A DNA stretch of 54,343 bases from Nitrosomonas sp. (GTDB lineage Bacteria; Pseudomonadota; Gammaproteobacteria; Burkholderiales; Nitrosomonadaceae). Below the pieces are notes generated by a model, which saw nothing but the letters and a program-made list of their open reading frames with translations, did not search any database and had not been told where the DNA came from. The stretch lies in assembly GCA_017994575.1 (NCBI GenBank), contig JAGOKN010000007.1, positions 1 through 54,343 on the forward strand. The letters run 5' to 3'. A program made the translations under genes and the position numbers. Below are positions 14,566 to 40,018 of this stretch, in pieces. The first letter of the stretch is position 1, and every line of letters begins with the position of its first letter.

Positions 14566-15315
14566 CTAAAGAAACTTGTTTAAAGTCACCATTGAAGCCA
14601 GTAACATTGCTGTTTCGGTAATTTCCACCAATGCGCCGGCTGTATCGCCTGTTGTTCCAGCAATGCGATCAAGCATTAGATGGCGTAATAGCAAGAACGT
14701 GATCACTGCGGCCAGCAGCAACACTAAATAATGACTGGCAGTGAGCAGCAATATCGCTGCGAAGGTTGCGACGATAACCATCAGGCTCCATTCGCGCGGC
14801 TGATGAGTAGCCAGCACGGCCCCCAATCCATTGCTTCTCACATACGGTGTGGTCAAAAATAGCAAGGGCAATAAGGTTCTGGCAAGAGTGGTAGCCAGTA
14901 GTACGGTGATCCATTCATGGGCAATCACCAGACTGTGCAGCGCGGTAAATTTGAGTAATAGGATCAATGCGATGGTTGTCACACCCGCTGGACCGCAATT
15001 GGGGTCTTTCATGATCGCCAGTGTCTTGCCACGATCTCCCATACCGCCAATCCAAGCATCCGCGCTATCCGCCAGGCCGTCCAGGTGTAATCCACCGGTT
15101 ATTAATACCCAAGTAGCCACCAGTAATGCTGCGGTTACTAGCGGCGGCAAGCCGCTCAATAACCAACTCAATCCGATGAGTATTAATCCAATGATGAAAC
15201 CGACGAGCGGATAAAACAGCAGAGAATTTCCAAGATCTTTTTCGTTCGGTTGAGAGGCCAAGCGCACGGGCAATCTGGTGAGAAATTGCACCGAGATGAG
15301 AAAGGGTTTGATCAT
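14566..15315 (-). CDS. cobS: Adenosylcobinamide-GDP ribazoletransferase
   Basis: A 249-residue integral membrane protein that joins alpha-ribazole (phosphate) to adenosylcobinamide-GDP, the last step of the cobalamin nucleotide loop. Family signatures are clear: an N-terminal FLTRLPV, FYPLVGFIIG, the conserved GGLHLDGLADSADAWIGG and IMKDPNCGPAG, and several transmembrane helices. Its start overlaps the cobC stop by 4 bp (ATGA), indicating coupled translation. It is the last gene of the B12 operon. Length is normal for the family. Confidence 0.96.
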   Translation of the reverse strand: MIKPFLISVQFLTRLPVRLASQPNEKDLGNSLLFYPLVGFIIGLILIGLSWLLSGLPPLVTAALLVATWVLITGGLHLDGLADSADAWIGGMGDRGKTLAIMKDPNCGPAGVTTIALILLLKFTALHSLVIAHEWITVLLATTLARTLLPLLFLTTPYVRSNGLGAVLATHQPREWSLMVIVATFAAILLLTASHYLVLLLAAVITFLLLRHLMLDRIAGTTGDTAGALVEITETAMLLASMVTLNKFL

Positions 15316-15917
15316 ATCCTTGAATCGGAGAGAATTTTTACTGGGGGATATTCTTCAAGCGCTATGGAAACATGCTTCATTTCAGCATGGCGCACTTCAA
15401 ATTCCAGCAGACATTCAATCGGATACTGCAGAATATGGCAAATAATGATGCGGATAACACCACCGTGCGTAACCAATAAGATGCTTTGTCCCGAAAACTG
15501 TTGTTGTATGGCATGCCAGGCTGACAAAATGCGGGCCTGGAAATCCAGCAAATGCTCACTATTCGGCGGTGGATTGTCCAGCGGATTATGCCAAAAACGC
15601 GACAAAACATCGGGATCGGTTTCCATCAATTGCGCGGCGGATTGATTTTCCCAATCCCCAAAATGTACTTCCTGAATACGGGCATCTTGTTTCACCGGAA
15701 TGGCGTATTGCTGCCCCAAGGCTTGTGCAAAATCTGCGCAGCGCGCTAACGGGGAAGTAATGATGTGCTGCCACTGGTGCAGTTTGTTTTGCTTGTTTTC
15801 AATAGCATTCCACATTTGTGTCCAGCCAAGCGGTGTCAGTGGATGATTGGTGCTGCCACAATACCGACTGCTATGTTCGGTCTCGCCATGTCTGAGCAAA
15901 TCGATGAAAGTGGTCAT
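15312..15917 (-). CDS. cobC: Alpha-ribazole-5'-phosphate phosphatase (histidine phosphatase family)
   Basis: A 201-residue histidine phosphatase. The phosphohistidine motif is LLRHGETEHS at residues 7-16, and the second catalytic His is in LVTHGGVIR. The family removes phosphate from alpha-ribazole phosphate or from cobalamin phosphate in nucleotide-loop assembly. The sequence alone cannot separate it from other phosphoglycerate-mutase-like phosphatases. The position between cobT (13 bp gap) and cobS (4 bp overlap) gives the assignment. Confidence 0.9.
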   Translation of the reverse strand: MTTFIDLLRHGETEHSSRYCGSTNHPLTPLGWTQMWNAIENKQNKLHQWQHIITSPLARCADFAQALGQQYAIPVKQDARIQEVHFGDWENQSAAQLMETDPDVLSRFWHNPLDNPPPNSEHLLDFQARILSAWHAIQQQFSGQSILLVTHGGVIRIIICHILQYPIECLLEFEVRHAEMKHVSIALEEYPPVKILSDSRI

Positions 15918-15930
15918 GGTTCAGTGGACA

Positions 15931-16995
15931 TTAGTTTTTCTGCGACACTTGCGCTTCCGAAAAAGTAGCCATTTCATTGTGCAGCTTGCAGGCCATGCGT
16001 AATAGATTGAGTGCAACAGCCGCACCACTCCCTTCACCCAAGCGCATATTCAAAGCAATGAGTGGCTCGGCATCGAGCGCTTTCAGAACCCTGCCGTGCC
16101 CCAATTCTGCGGATTGATGTGAATAAAAGAACCAATTTTTGCAACCTGGAAAAATATGCTCCGCGGCCAGCGCTGCAACGCTACTGATAAATCCATCGAT
16201 CAGCATCGGCAGCCCTACTTGCGCCCCATGAATATAAGCGCCTGTCAGCGCAGCGATTTCAAACCCGCCCATACGGCGTAGCGCATCCAAAGGGGAATGG
16301 ATATGCGCATGATGCGCGGCCAAAGCCCGTGAAATCACATTAATTTTGTGAGTAATGCCATGACTATCAAGACCAGTGCCGGAGCCTGTCAGCAACATGG
16401 GCGGCTCATTGAGCAGGATACAAGCCAACGCGGTGGCACTGGTGGTGTTGCCAATCCCCATTTCTCCACCAATAAACAATTGTTTGTTATTTTGTTGCGC
16501 CTGCTCAATGACATCAAAACCAGCATTCAGTGCTTGATTCAGTTGATCTTCAGTCATTGCAGGTCCATGGATAAAATTGGCCGTACCAGGTCCCAAGTGA
16601 TAATGCTTCACATCGGTTAATGACCGCGTATCCTGCACTGTTCCCAGATTAATGATTTCCAGGGAAGCACTCAAAGCACGCGCCAACACATTGATTGCGC
16701 CACCGCCACGCGCAAAGTTCCTGATCATCTCGCTGGTTACTGACTGAGGAAATGCTGAGATTCCCTCCACAGCAACGCCATGGTCACCGGCAAATATGGC
16801 GATGTGCACCTGATCAACACAAGGCTGTGCGGTATTTTGCAAAGTAGCCAGTTGGACAGCAATTTCTTCCAGGCGACCGAGCGAACCCGGTGGTTTGGTC
16901 AGTTGTGCTTGACGTGTTTCTGCTATCCGGGTCATTTCCAGATTGGGAGTGGCTAATGGTGCTTCCAGCCAATTCAGCACAATTTTCCGGGTCAC
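15931..16995 (-). CDS. cobT: Nicotinate-nucleotide--dimethylbenzimidazole phosphoribosyltransferase
   Basis: A protein of about 354 residues that makes alpha-ribazole phosphate from dimethylbenzimidazole and nicotinate mononucleotide. Visible hallmarks are KPPGSLGRLEEIA, IFAGDHGV, GGEMGIGNTTSA, and the catalytic Glu in MRLGEGSGAA near the C-terminus. The frame stays open further upstream, but the GTG at 16995 is chosen because it overlaps the cobU stop (GTGTGA) and gives the usual family length. It uses the DMB made by BluB in the same operon. Confidence 0.95.
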   Translation of the reverse strand: MTRKIVLNWLEAPLATPNLEMTRIAETRQAQLTKPPGSLGRLEEIAVQLATLQNTAQPCVDQVHIAIFAGDHGVAVEGISAFPQSVTSEMIRNFARGGGAINVLARALSASLEIINLGTVQDTRSLTDVKHYHLGPGTANFIHGPAMTEDQLNQALNAGFDVIEQAQQNNKQLFIGGEMGIGNTTSATALACILLNEPPMLLTGSGTGLDSHGITHKINVISRALAAHHAHIHSPLDALRRMGGFEIAALTGAYIHGAQVGLPMLIDGFISSVAALAAEHIFPGCKNWFFYSHQSAELGHGRVLKALDAEPLIALNMRLGEGSGAAVALNLLRMACKLHNEMATFSEAQVSQKN

Positions 16996-17522
16996 ACACG
17001 TTCTCCTTTTAGCATTAACGGTAATCCGGCAACGGTTAGAACCACCTGATCGCAATATTGTGCGATTTCCTGATGCAATTTACCGGCCTCATCGCAATAG
17101 CGGCGGCTCAGTTCACCCATCGGAGTGATCCCCATGTTCGTTTCATTGCTGACTAGAATGAGTTTTCCCGTCAGGTGCGGCAATACGTTGAAGAATGCCG
17201 ATCGTTCACTATCAAATCGGGAGGCATCTGCATGCATGAGTAAATTGGTCAGCCATAGCGTCAGGCAATCGACCAATACGCAATGATCGGCTTTTGTATA
17301 TTGATTCAACACCGAAGCCAATGCCAAAGGTTCTTCGATGACTTGCCAATGAACCGGACGGCGCACTCGATGTGCAGCAATACGTTCACGCATTTCTTCG
17401 TCTCCAATGGTTGCCGTGGCAATATAAGTAACCGGAAACTGGCTCTCCGTGGCCAAACGTTCAGCCAGTCGGCTTTTGCCTGAACGAACGCCGCCGAGTA
17501 TCAACGTCTTGGTGTCTAACAT
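16992..17522 (-). CDS. cobU: Adenosylcobinamide kinase / adenosylcobinamide-phosphate guanylyltransferase
   Basis: A 176-residue bifunctional enzyme that phosphorylates adenosylcobinamide and then adds GMP. It shows the P-loop LGGVRSGKS at residues 9-17, a guanylyl-acceptor His region in [23 protein letters not shown], and the [10 protein letters not shown] segment near the C-terminal third. Its start overlaps the cobQ stop by 7 bp, and its stop overlaps cobT. Its substrate comes from CobQ/CbiB or from salvaged cobinamide. Confidence 0.96.
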
Positions 17523-19144
17523 GACGTATTGGGTTTTACATTGAGCAATCGATACAACTGTGCGGTATCCAGATACTCATCAACGCAATCCGCTAATCGA
17601 TTGATGGCAGTATCACACGTTGCATGATAATCAGGGGCTGGGGCTTGACCATCCAGCCCTGCCCAAGTAAGTAATTCACTACAAGCTGTGGAAGACTCAA
17701 AAATGCCATGCCAATAAGTACCCAGTATCAATCCATCTTCACTGATTGCACCATCATCATGATCCGCCAGATGAATGGCCGACTGATAGTGCCGGTGATA
17801 GGTGGTGATACCTGCATGGATCTCATAACCAGTCACCGCAGCATCATTAACAGGCCGTTGAAAAACTATCTGCGTTGCCGCTGCGGTGTTAAAAACAGAC
17901 TCAAAATGCTCATTTATTAAGCATAAACTGCGCTTTTTCGCCTGTTTTTGCCTTGCATCGGCTGCCTCGAAAACGTTTTTCAACGGCCTGTTAAAGGAGA
18001 GTGTTCCCTGCGTATTGCGTAGTAGCTTATCCGATTGTAAAGTCGTTTCCATATCAAAAAAAGAAAATCCTTGCGCACTACCGGCAATACCTTCCACGCC
18101 ATGAGGATCATGAATGAATTTTCCCAGCATTTGGAAGCCGCCACAGATGCCCATCAGCTTTCCGCCGTAGCGTAAATGCCGACGGATAGCGGGCTCCCAG
18201 CCCTGCTCACGCAACCAATCCAGATCGGCGTGCACGCTTTTTGAACCAGGCAAAATGATCAAGTCGGCAGGCGGAATGGTTTCTCCGGGTCCAATAAATT
18301 GTAAATTGACCTGCGAGTGTAAGCGCAGTGGATCAAAATCGGTATGGTTGCTGATGCGTGGCAAAGCAGGAACAATCACGCGAAATTTTTTCTGTTCTGA
18401 TGACAAAGACGAAGCCGCTTTCTGGGGCAAAGCATCTTCCGCTTCGAGGTGCAAGCCTTGCAGGTAAGGCAGAACACCCAATACCGGCTTGCCAGTATAG
18501 TGTTCCAGCCAATCCAATCCCGATTGAAGTAATGCCATATCCCCCCGAAAGCGATTGATAACGAAGCCCTGAATACGCGCCTGTTCACTTTCGCTCAATA
18601 ATGCCAGCGTGCCTACCAGATGAGCAAAAACGCCACCACGATCAATATCGGCAATGAGAATGACCGGACAATCGACAGCTTCTGCAAAACCCATATTGGC
18701 AATATCATTGGCACGCAAATTGATTTCAGCCGGTGAACCTGCGCCCTCAACAATAATCGCATCATATTGTTCAGTCAGTCGCGCGTACGATTCAAGCACC
18801 GCTTTGAGTGCGACGGATTTATAATCGTGAAAACCACAGGCATCCATGTTGGCAATAGCATGACCATGAATGATGATTTGCGCATTTTTATCGGTATTGG
18901 GTTTGAGCAGCACTGGATTCATGTCGGTATGTGGCGCCAAACCTGCTGCCCGCGCCTGAACGGCTTGTGCGCGGCCGATTTCTCCGCCATCGACAGTGAC
19001 AACACTGTTAAGCGCCATATTTTGCGGTTTGAAAGGCGCAACACGAACACGTTGGCGTGCCAGCCAACGGCAGAGCGCCGTCACCAGCATGCTTTTGCCT
19101 GCATCCGATGTGGTGCCTTGAATCATCAAGGTTTGAGCATTCAT
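17516..19144 (-). CDS. cobQ: Cobyric acid synthase with an in-frame palindromic-element insertion
   Basis: A 542-residue glutamine amidotransferase that amidates cobyrinic acid a,c-diamide to cobyric acid. The N-terminal synthetase has [24 protein letters not shown] and DIDRGGVFA. The GATase-like domain has the Cys in [11 protein letters not shown] (about residue 340) and the His in YWHGIFES. The ATG at 19144 overlaps the cobD stop by 4 bp and matches the family N-terminus. The protein is about 48 residues longer than expected. Residues about 385-432 ([11 protein letters not shown] through QIVFQRPVN) come entirely from a 144-bp mobile palindrome at 17849-17992. The insertion keeps frame, has no stop, and lies between the Cys and His of the amidotransferase domain, just before the conserved VTGYEIHAG. 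Whether the enzyme tolerates it is unknown. Confidence 0.94.
17849..17992. mobile_element. 144-bp palindromic element (MITE-like) inserted in cobQ
   Basis: Perfect 18-bp terminal inverted repeats, AACAGGCCGTTGAAAAAC at 17849-17866 and its complement at 17975-17992, extend to 20 bp if the flanking TT and AA are counted. Inner segments also pair (AAAACAG with CTGTTTT), so the whole unit can fold into a long hairpin. 144 bp is exactly 48 codons and the cobQ frame stays open through it. No transposase is encoded. Similar repeats occur widely in Nitrosomonas genomes as far as I recall, which I cannot check here. The target duplication is ambiguous; TA or TTAA is possible. Confidence 0.85.
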
Positions 19145-20199
19145 GGCGCCTGTTCCGCTAAATTGTGAATTTTGCGATTGATTTGCGTTAGTGCCATATC
19201 TAGTCGCTGCCAATCCGATTCATGCGCCGGCAAACCAAAACGCAGGCTGGGCGGCTCATCCAGGTAGCGCACTAAAATACCCTGCGATGCCAGTGCTTCA
19301 TATACCTCAGCAGCATGACGTGAAACGCTCCATTGAAAAAGCCCGCAACCGCCTGCAGGAGCCAATTGATGGCGGGTCAGCAAAGTTTTCAAGCGATTAC
19401 TGGCAATCAAAAGATTTCTTTGTGTTGATTCTTGCCATGCAACATCCTGGAGCGCCTGAACCGCCACCCAACGTGCGGGAGTATTAACAGTCCAAGGCCC
19501 AAGCAAGCGATTTAGTTGATTTAGCAACTGCGATTGTGCGCAAACAAAGCCCACACGCGCCCCCGCCAAGCCAAAGAATTTCCCCAGTGAACGCAATACG
19601 ATAAGGCCAGGCAATGCGGTATAGGATGTAATACTCTGTTCAGGCGTCATATCCATAAAGGCTTCATCGACGATTAGCCAACCATTATGATCAGCGAGTT
19701 GTGCATGCCAGTCGAGTAATTGCTCTGTCGGAAAAACAGTACCTGTTGGGTTATTGGGATGAATAATGATCAGAACATCCGTATGCGGCAAAGCATCATT
19801 TATTTGATTGGGAGCGACTGTCGATACCTGATGATTGGCATGTCGCCATGCATGCGCATGTTCGGCATAACTTGGGTTAAGTATGCAAACACGAGACGAG
19901 TTACGCAATTGAGGGAGAGCCTGGATGGCTGCTTGTGAACCGGCAACAGGCAAGAGCGACGGTGCGCCATAATAATTACATGCGACTTCAATTAATTCAT
20001 CTTCTTCCTCCGGCAATCGCTGCCATATATTTGCAGGAACGGCTGCAACTGGCCAGCCATTCGGATTAATGCCGGTAGAAAGATCAAGCCAACCCTCCAA
20101 CGGAAGCTGGTAGTGTTTGGCTGCCGCCCGTAAACGACCCCCATGGTGCAATTTCTCAGGCTGATATAATGGATGTGGCAAACCATTCTCCTGCACCAA
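19141..20199 (-). CDS. cobD: Threonine-phosphate decarboxylase (PLP-dependent)
   Basis: A 352-residue class I/II aminotransferase-fold enzyme that makes (R)-1-aminopropan-2-ol phosphate, the linker between the corrin ring and nucleotide loop. Hallmarks are [11 protein letters not shown] near the start, [34 protein letters not shown], and the PLP Lys in [14 protein letters not shown]. It starts 44 bp inside cbiB; a TTG just after the cbiB stop is an alternative start. Its stop overlaps cobQ. Neighbouring CbiB uses its product directly. The name cobC is used for this function in the Pseudomonas scheme. Confidence 0.94.
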
Positions 20200-21070
20200 T
20201 GACGACTAACCAAAGTAGCAATGCGCGTTGTATCAGTCCTAATGCCCGTTCAATATCATTTGCATTGGGAATGTGGCCTTCGCCTAAGGTGGGGCGCTGC
20301 TCGAGTCTGCCGTGATACCAAGCGGCGCCGCCCAATAATACGCCAAGGCTACCCGCACCGGCAGCCATGACGGGCCCAGCATTTGGGCTTTTCCAGGTGA
20401 TGCCTTGTGTTCTCCAGCAAAACAAAGCGCTGGCCATTCGCCCTGTGATGGCGTAACTCAATGCGGTTAATCGTGCGGGTATGAAATTCATGACGTCATC
20501 CAGTCGCGCAGCGGCCCAACCAAAATGACGATAACGATCCGTGCGATAGCCCCACATGGCATCCAGTGTATTCACCAGTCGATAAGTCACTGCACCTGGC
20601 GCTCCGGCAATAATAAACCAGAAAATAGCAGCAAAAATCGCATCATTGCCATTTTCCAATACAGATTCAACCGTGGCCTTGGCTACGCCACTATGATCAA
20701 GCATCATCGTATCTCGGCTGACAAGAAAGCTCACGTGTTGACGGGCTTCGGGCAAATTGTCGGCAACCAGACTGTTATGTACCGTTCGGGCATGAGCAAT
20801 AAGACTATTCCAGCCGATGGCGAGGTACAACAACAAGCCTTCAAATACCGGTGACCAGGGTAGAAAATGGACGATTAATGCAATGAGCAGCATCACTGGC
20901 AACAATAACAACAATACCGCGCTCAAGCCGCGCATCACTGAATCGGCATACAGCCATCGTTCAATTGCTTGTGCAAGATTGCCAAACCCAACCAGTGGAT
21001 GATAACGGCGCGCCTCCCCCAGCCAAGCATCCAGCAAAAGAGCGCACATTACAATCAGCGTGATAGTCAT
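20156..21070 (-). CDS. cbiB: Adenosylcobinamide-phosphate synthase
   Basis: A 304-residue integral membrane protein that attaches the aminopropanol (phosphate) arm to cobyric acid. It shows the family start ALLLDAWLGEARRYHPLVGFG, LVSRDTMMLDHSGVAKATVES, NDAIFAAIFWFIIAGAPGAVTYRLVNTLDAMWGYR and the conserved WKSPNAGPVMAAGAGSLG. It lies 16 bp downstream of bluB and overlaps cobD. The same function is called CobD in the Pseudomonas naming scheme. Confidence 0.96.
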   Translation of the reverse strand: MTITLIVMCALLLDAWLGEARRYHPLVGFGNLAQAIERWLYADSVMRGLSAVLLLLLPVMLLIALIVHFLPWSPVFEGLLLYLAIGWNSLIAHARTVHNSLVADNLPEARQHVSFLVSRDTMMLDHSGVAKATVESVLENGNDAIFAAIFWFIIAGAPGAVTYRLVNTLDAMWGYRTDRYRHFGWAAARLDDVMNFIPARLTALSYAITGRMASALFCWRTQGITWKSPNAGPVMAAGAGSLGVLLGGAAWYHGRLEQRPTLGEGHIPNANDIERALGLIQRALLLWLVVIGAGEWFATSIISA

Positions 21071-28101: not shown

Positions 28102-28635
28102 GATGCCATCCTTTTAATAATCACTTTTTTATTCAATTTTTTAGCCATCTACTCAGTTCATACTGCCACTTTAACTTAACTTAAATGAATGCGGGGTGAA
28201 CAGATTCGGGATTGAGGCTTTGTATCCAGGGGAGAATTGAATCTAAGCCGAGCATCTTTAAACATCCCGATTTGCCTAGGGAAACGCTGATTAATTCGGC
28301 GAACGAGATGAAGCACGAGGCGCACGGAACGCAGCAACCGAGACATATCAACATGATAGGCGAGGGAGCGAGTACCGCGCAACGAAGTGATTCGCTCGTA
28401 CAGTCAATTAATCAGCGTTTCCCTAGCAGAGCGGATGAAGTTCAAGCTGCTTTTCCTACTTTGTCACTGCCTCTGACAGAAATAGCAACGCGGCTTCTAA
28501 ATGAATAGAATTTTCTCGAGACTATCTCTATTTTAATTAATTTTATAAAGGATTATTCGCAGTAACGTGCTATAGTTCTGAAGTGACATTAAGACACTAG
28601 AAATATTTTTATACATTTTAAGGACGTTGCGATAA
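28102..28635. other. Intergenic stretch with MITE copy 1 and ORF remnant
   Basis: Contains the 143-bp MITE. The short flanking frame (28199-28508 on the plus strand) stays open through the MITE and ends IATRLLNE at 28508. Without the MITE plus one 4-bp duplication (147 bp) it would read KHPDLP directly into SRADEVQAAFPTLSLPL. I cannot name it; it looks like the C-terminal remnant of a gene. Confidence 0.5.
28280..28422. mobile_element. 143-bp MITE, copy 1 (YTAG target duplication)
   Basis: Terminal inverted repeats GGAAACGCTGATTAATT / AATTAATCAGCGTTTCC, flanked on both sides by CTAG (28276-28279 and 28423-28426), read as a 4-bp target duplication. It encodes no transposase. It is nearly identical to the copy at 39809-39951. 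Four-bp YTAR duplications and GG-starting ends are known for IS5-group elements, so an IS5-type transposase probably moved it (inference). Confidence 0.88.
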
Positions 28636-39803: not shown

Positions 39804-39808
39804 ATTAG

Positions 39809-39951
39809 GGAAACGCTGATTAATACGGCGAACGAGATGAAGCGCGAGGCGCACGGAACGCAGCAACCGAGACATATCAACATGATAGGCGAGGGAGCGA
39901 GTACCGCGCAACGAAGTGATTCGCTCGTACAGTCAATTAATTAGTGTTTCC
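39809..39951. mobile_element. 143-bp MITE, copy 2 (TTAG target duplication)
   Basis: Same length and nearly the same sequence as the copy at 28280-28422, with the same GGAAACGCTGATTAAT end; the right end has two changes in the inverted repeat. It is flanked by TTAG on both sides (39805-39808, 39952-39955). It lies 5 bp after the stop of the TPM gene, in intergenic DNA. Confidence 0.88.
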
Positions 39952-40018
39952 TTAGGCTAAACAGAACCTACTCTCAGGATTTTGTGGAAGCCAAGGTTCC
40001 AAGATCATCTAAGAACGG

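Follow-up and report, generated by a model that had tools for sequence, protein, structure and literature searches.

The cobyric acid synthase gene cobQ, a vitamin B12 gene, contains a palindromic repeat in a genome of the ammonia-oxidizing bacterium Nitrosomonas sp. (GCA_017994575.1) that is read as part of the protein, raising the questions of what the repeat is, how it came to lengthen a conserved enzyme in frame, and whether the added peptide was selected or merely marks a lucky survivor. We analyzed a 54,343-nucleotide stretch of contig JAGOKN010000007.1, referred to here as the window (Table 1), together with related loci in other genomes.

A palindromic element in an open reading frame

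A first-pass annotation of the window, made from the DNA letters alone, had described a 144-bp element with perfect 18-bp inverted ends. The ends were indeed perfect but reached further, to 20 bp including a 4-bp target: TTAACAGGCCGTTGAAAAAC and GTTTTTCAACGGCCTGTTAA, at 17847-17866 and 17975-17994, were 100% complementary, and the terminal inverted repeats proper comprised 16 bp, also 100% complementary. The outer TTAA is the target and lies outside the element, and the 144 bp correctly described the net gain, which consists of a 140-bp mobile unit plus the duplicated TTAA (140 + 4). A chance inverted repeat was ruled out by the complete complementarity of the 20-bp ends and by a search with the 18-mer end, which at up to three mismatches found three matches in the window where 0.03 were expected, two of them the element's own ends. 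As proposed, the element folds over its whole length, one strand forming a single long hairpin of -63.3 kcal/mol (shuffled sequences -34.9 +/- 3.7; z -7.6), and cobQ is open right through it; only one of the six reading frames of the element is open, and cobQ uses exactly that one. Searching window positions 17000-19300 against Rfam returned no described RNA family at the gathering threshold, and seven loci with related elements gave three sub-threshold matches, all in one locus (L321) and off the element. Neither a match to the element in the phages searched nor an exact 24-mer match in viral contigs was found.

Table 1. Coordinates of the features discussed, given as positions in the window.
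Feature	Position	Strand	Remarks
cobQ, cobyric acid synthase, host gene	17516..19144	-	542 aa with insert; NF001989 656.9 bits; CbiA and GATase_3 domains
His479 codon (TYWHG)	17708..17710	-	
Cys334 codon (GICGGFQ)	18143..18145	-	
48 added codons (CobQ residues 386-433)	17846..17989	-	Absent in 26/26 orthologues spanning the site
MITE with both 4-bp target duplications	17847..17994	-	148 bp
Mobile unit of the cobQ MITE	17851-17990		140 bp, CAGG...CCTG
Target site duplication TTAA, left copy	17847..17850	.	Paired-end pattern among family copies
Target site duplication TTAA, right copy	17991..17994	.	Same pairing pattern; empty site in sister L022
Terminal inverted repeat arm CAGGCCGTTGAAAAAC	17851..17866	+	16/16 identical to both ends of IS L167
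Terminal inverted repeat arm	17975..17990	-	Complementarity; match to ends of IS L167
Internal hairpin core (core 1)	17882..17956	-	Common to elements with other terminal repeats; covariation
Second MITE, unrelated to the cobQ element	28276-28426, 39805-39955		151 bp; ends GGGAAACGCTGATTAA; CTAG or TTAG duplications

A mobile family with an IS5-type partner

The repeat had been taken to be mobile, and its absence from the rest of the genome had been named as an objection. In its own genome, an assembly of 147 contigs that is 86% complete, 12 further places were found at E<=0.001 (13 in all), nine of them near full length, and the complete genome G020 held at least 40 copies (all 40 scored of 101 candidates). 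Matches at the DNA level occurred in 36 of 61 related genomes, comprising 33/37 within the genus and 3/24 within the order; in the three order-level genomes and in G003 and G028, most of the matches listed were to the core or the ends alone. The peptide frame of the element was detected in 54 of 85 Nitrosomonas genomes (E<=1e-10). A scan of a wider collection returned 37 records with a match: 34 Nitrosomonas, two named 'Proteobacteria bacterium' and one Marinimicrobium. A full-length relative with 83% identity was observed on a Pseudomonas veronii plasmid (LT599585.1, 144458-144603), unannotated and between annotated genes, and the family therefore reaches Gammaproteobacteria.

We gathered 168 distinct full copies, which are not a random sample: the set consists of the best-scoring DNA matches, with some loci from the cobQ search, three of these chosen because their open frames are long, together with 40 regions that the peptide search had yielded. 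Identical 4-bp ends were carried by 118 of the 168, and in 115 these were TTAA, TTAG, CTAA or CTAG. This pairing identifies YTAR as the target and sets the duplication at 4 bp, giving a mobile unit of 140 bp and a net gain of 144 bp. The non-identical ends of the remaining 50/168 copies were read as probable decay. Only 9 of 166 copies tested, in four groups, shared their insertion site across at least two genomes, and turnover is therefore high. One copy (L094) was seen to interrupt an apparent IS transposase, as judged by eye.

To find a partner, the DUF772 transposase domain was searched in seven genomes and 30 loci were read. G020 encoded two 1345-bp insertion sequences (L167 and L160), both ends of which are exactly CAGGCCGTTGAAAAAC; the intact L167 is situated between TTAA and TTAA, and L160 between CTAG and TTAG. 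The L167 transposase scored 273.8 bits against the IS5-family model NF033581 (cut-off 140). Targets resembling YTAR are used by relatives of IS5. Two related insertion sequences in G006 (L271 and L274) had exact TTAG and CTAG duplications, and degenerate ones were present in G074 and G033. The MITE and L167 had only their ends in common (20 bp including the target). The family thus combines inverted ends, a 4-bp duplication, short multi-copy units without a transposase gene, and an autonomous partner in G020; these features mark the cobQ element as a non-autonomous, IS5-type MITE. No transposase of the L167 subgroup was found in its own genome at E<=1e-40, and such transposases occurred in only 4 of the 61 genomes at that threshold; because of this, mobilization in trans by an IS5-family transposase is something we can only infer. 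The source transposase is probably either absent from the cobQ genome or unassembled there.

The insertion in CobQ

With the cobQ start taken as the ATG at 19144, the insert lies between Cys334, which we take to be the amidotransferase nucleophile, and His479, presumably the active-site histidine. The GATase_3 match (278-508) places it within the amidotransferase domain, and it falls at a pair of variable residues (N|D) just upstream of the conserved TGYEIH motif. The first-pass annotation had thus been accurate in placing about 48 extra residues between the Cys and the His, directly before a conserved motif.

Comparison with relatives, which had been suggested as a check, drew on at least 28 further cobQ loci in the genus. 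The 48 residues were missing from every one of the 26 orthologues that span the insertion site, and the other two (L048 and L049) stop short of it. In the nearest orthologue, sister L022, with 93% amino acid identity, the empty site reads GTTAATGAGG. The insertion is young on this sequence record, since no site-spanning orthologue has it and since the copy differs from the family consensus by one base and is identical to one of the copies in G020. The CobQ of G020 was 87% identical to that of the window over residues 23-409 and 66% identical over 456-564. In so young a copy, the open frame is no proof of selection. A search of solved structures with CobQ returned only HisH (E 1.2e-4), and no CobQ relatives were found in the viral contigs searched. 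Judging from alignments, the insertion site is probably a surface turn.

How the insertion reads through

We postulate that an IS5-family transposase, acting in trans, would recognize CAGGCCGTTGAAAAAC at both ends of the element and insert the 140-bp unit at a YTAR target, whose four bases are duplicated in the process. A full-length insertion would always be a multiple of three, as 140 + 4 = 144 bp. Inside genes, the phase in which TAR forms a codon is excluded because TAR is a stop, leaving two phases in each of two orientations, and of these four combinations only one reads through (frame YT|ARC AGG CCG ...). In cobQ, a recent landing in this open combination before TGYEIH would have added 48 residues instead of a stop. 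We regard this account as a whole, a recent IS5-type MITE insertion at YTAR that lengthened CobQ in frame, as very probable; it draws on direct evidence for the mobility of the family, its target duplication, the frame, the youth of the insertion, its absence in orthologues and the same-ended insertion sequence in another species.

Three clear in-gene cases were found, and all were in the open combination: cobQ itself; a heparinase II/III-like gene in G008 (L116; 642 aa without the insert), whose 13 homologues examined all lack it; and an NAD-dependent epimerase-like gene in G071 (L122), with the same peptide in frame and absent from all 19 homologues examined. By chance, all three would be in the open combination 1 time in 64, a figure that is no test, as cobQ and L122 were chosen knowing their frames. 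Other in-gene candidates were set aside: in L120 (a 968-aa ORF) the element is apparently upstream of the true start, as judged by eye; L298, L154 and L005 had no Pfam match; L295 and L288 had one, but the element is probably upstream of the real start; and in L317, L282, L009 and L314 it lies at the end of the gene. A further candidate, in a FecR/LysM protein (L281), had the insert in frame 21 codons from the start.

Artifact, broken enzyme or selected peptide

Since the 86% complete genome is fragmented into 147 contigs and the element is repeated within it, a 148-bp repeat might have been misjoined into cobQ during assembly. Such a misjoin would be expected to connect two different genes, whereas here the sequence on both sides is cobQ, correctly ordered and in frame, and TTAA is duplicated exactly; similar in-frame insertions exist in two other genomes (L116 and L122); an artifact is barely credible. 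A real insertion could still have inactivated CobQ, or struck a gene that was already dying, in which case the open frame would be coincidental and the protein would not work. The insertion is within a conserved amidotransferase domain, where 48 residues could do harm, and an open frame would arise by chance alone one time in four. In addition, the residue preceding His479 in TYWHG (window 17708-17713) is Trp, where the 26 orthologues carry Leu or, once, Ile. Set against this, the cobQ frame is open over 542 aa, and the neighboring ORFs at 14566-21070, which are cobalamin-like (named by eye, apart from cobU, which was named by profile match), are open. That cobQ might be drifting had been foreseen as an objection, but no drift was apparent up to the insertion: CobQ of the window had no unique residue at otherwise invariant columns, and its lineage-specific changes (25 synonymous and 13 non-synonymous) were similar to those of the sister (36 and 15). 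Nearly all of this constraint evidence is older than the very young insertion, and later loss could have followed. We consider a non-working CobQ a genuine, if somewhat doubtful, possibility, and on the sequence evidence lean slightly towards a lengthened CobQ that folds and works.

The annotation had further suggested that the insert is tolerated or even selected. If the peptide were useful or conserved, selection would keep the element in genes, as has been suggested for the Rickettsia elements. Among the 130 copies that are 148 bp long, 104 had the open frame intact, where neutral simulation gave 90.5 +/- 5.3 and reached that number in 6 of 400 runs. The peptide is in frame in three genes, and the copy of the window's second MITE at 28276 likewise has a single fully open frame, with a net length of 147 bp, divisible by three. 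However, the sample was partly fetched via the peptide, which favors open frames, and when the interior was shuffled between unchanged ends, frame 2 was open on either strand in 25% of cases. Synonymous changes in the open frame (286/1192 = 0.240) were below the neutral 0.266 +/- 0.013, and codon-position entropy in 27 diverse elements was nearly equal across the three positions (0.723/0.711/0.730; core 0.527/0.532/0.575). Only 9 of 162 copies lay inside ORFs of at least 150 aa, against 1096 of 1926 control sites (56.9%), where the 162 are the copies flanked by at least 450 bp in both directions and the controls are YTAR sites of the same loci; a first count that used only one target copy gave 14/162 against 57.1% of 2457 control sites. 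Apart from the three clear cases and L281, the in-ORF copies that were read closely appeared to lie in ORF extensions upstream of the true start or in spurious ORFs. None of the three in-gene copies was among the nine common to several genomes, and their homologues lack them. The selected peptide was rejected on the synonymous fraction and the codon-position entropy, and we regard it as very unlikely; the part of the earlier suggestion that concerned selection found no support, with neither a codon-position signal in the 27 elements nor a synonymous excess.

Insertion on stop codons

In 29 of the 162 copies (for example L086, L108, L129 and L142), the duplicated TAR was the stop codon of an ORF of at least 150 aa; L086 and L108 represent one site common to two genomes. 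Among non-interior sites, stop codons were used in 19.0% of cases, compared with 7.6% of controls (p 5e-5 for ORFs of at least 150 aa), an enrichment that varies with the ORF cut-off (p=0.22 at 80 aa, 0.0019 at 100, 5e-5 at 150 and 8e-8 at 200). As far as can be read from these loci, insertion at a stop codon leaves the protein unaltered. As YTAR contains TAA or TAG, the element can occupy a gene's stop exactly, a simple route to harmlessness for a parasite. In four copies (L001, L062, L066 and L115), ORFs were seen to enter the element and end in LTGR or LAGR, encoded by the target and terminal repeat.

A hairpin core with different ends

The 75-bp inner hairpin of the element (query 39-113) was found elsewhere between four other kinds of ends. 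Across all gathered loci, de-duplicated by upstream flank only, core 1 was flanked by ends A, those of the cobQ element, in 185 cases, B in 10, C in seven, D in nine and E in one, with 29 unresolved; the core of the second MITE (core 2) was flanked by ends F in 13 cases and A in one, with three unresolved. Ends A occurred in Nitrosomonas and on Pseudomonas plasmids, B and C in other Nitrosomonas, D in order-level relatives and E in Halomonas. The left target was YTAR in 159/185 copies with ends A, 7/10 with B, 4/7 with C and 1/1 with E; the counts for D (2/9) and F (0/13) do not resolve the target, as the search motif overlaps it by one base. At the two F copies in the window, the target bases are CTAG and TTAG. 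Core 1 with other ends was observed on a Halomonas plasmid, in an order-level relative and in other Nitrosomonas (L228:1962-2109, L330, L334 and L354).

The second MITE was found at 40 or more places in its own genome (89-100% identity; 40 scored of 63 candidates), including the two in the window. Its core 2 occurred once between ends A (L345, in G055). Both MITE kinds of the window were also seen back to back, with a three-base overlap, at G000:C49:29419-29712.

Over 28 core pairs in 27 elements of types A-E, 94.9% of cells were standard pairs, and 15 pairs had changed on both sides. The covariation score of 0.422 exceeded that of shuffled alignments (0.181) and of slid partners (at most 0.151), with the caveat that this alignment had also supplied the structure and that the sequences are related. 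Two of five measures were near the shuffles, namely double-change pairs (reached by 12/500) and further pair types (125/500). Complementary arms can also be maintained by hairpin-templated repair, in which case selection need not be involved. Ends A, B, C and E have common letters (TGAAAAA or TGATTAA), and part of the difference between ends may therefore reflect divergence instead of exchange.

It looks as if ends and cores can be exchanged. Going further, the conserved unit might be a structured 75-bp core, maintained through compensatory base changes and re-equipped with several IS5-family ends, such that these MITEs are modular and swap transposases, the hairpin is selected and the CobQ peptide is accidental; we give this proposal a little less than an even chance. 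If true, the hairpin itself would do something that is selected, such as protein binding or a role as RNA or in replication, and the in-frame peptides would be an accident of a gene-sparing, YTAR-targeted design of 140 + 4 bp. Should the exchange of ends around the core hold, the classification of bacterial MITEs would change and the core would be a concrete module in which to look for function.

Comparison with known systems

Palindromic elements inserted in frame were reportedly described in Rickettsia by Ogata et al. in 2000 and 2002 (Rickettsia palindromic elements, RPEs). According to the accessible part of PMC10969869, nearly half of the RPEs are in ORFs. Like the cobQ element, RPEs are palindromes of about 150 bp; both have a conserved peptide frame and are read in frame within metabolic genes that are unrelated to one another (PMC10969869, in part), here cobQ and the heparinase II/III-like and NAD epimerase-like genes. 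In contrast to the large share of RPEs within ORFs (PMC10969869, in part), only 9/162 Nitrosomonas copies lay in ORFs of at least 150 aa, three of them clear cases. Unlike for RPEs, a target duplication and a same-ended insertion sequence were identified for the Nitrosomonas element. The likeness to RPEs drawn by the first-pass annotation, which we compared by description, therefore held for the manner of working, but membership did not, with 153/162 copies outside ORFs of at least 150 aa.

The enterobacterial repeats RU-1, RU-2 and RU-3 are, in the sections of Delihas 2007 (PMC2759123) available to us, MITE-like and mainly intergenic, with an open frame that is sometimes fused to genes, and the Nitrosomonas element resembles them in each of these respects. 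They differ in that RU repeats, as far as that text goes, contribute to C-terminal regions only and to no conserved superfamily domain, whereas the Nitrosomonas element entered the amidotransferase domain of CobQ (PMC2759123). QMITE1 and QMITE2 of Coxiella likewise contribute to proteins in frame, including at the 3' end of a gene, but in the excerpted description have duplications of 2-3 or 7-11 nt and variable sequence, and were likened here by description (PMC5896051). IS5-family insertion sequences have the same 16-bp ends and kind of target as the element, which differs in being without a transposase.

Within the open-licence literature, no Nitrosomonas MITE was found by title or abstract (one article, PMC10907252, contains both words), the letters of the core were not found in print, and nothing relevant-looking on swapped ends appeared. 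In-frame MITE fusion is known from the Rickettsia elements, the RU repeats and QMITE, as the consulted portions of PMC10969869, PMC2759123 and PMC5896051 describe; as far as we searched, the MITE family, its partner insertion sequence, the insertion in the CobQ amidotransferase domain and the core with different ends are new. Rickettsia is the best-known source of palindromic inserts read in frame, and the genus Nitrosomonas is free-living and has been widely sequenced. With the target, a same-ended insertion sequence and empty sites in hand, the question of selected peptide or lucky survivor is answerable here, and on the evidence so far the in-frame insert is a lucky survivor, not a selected peptide.
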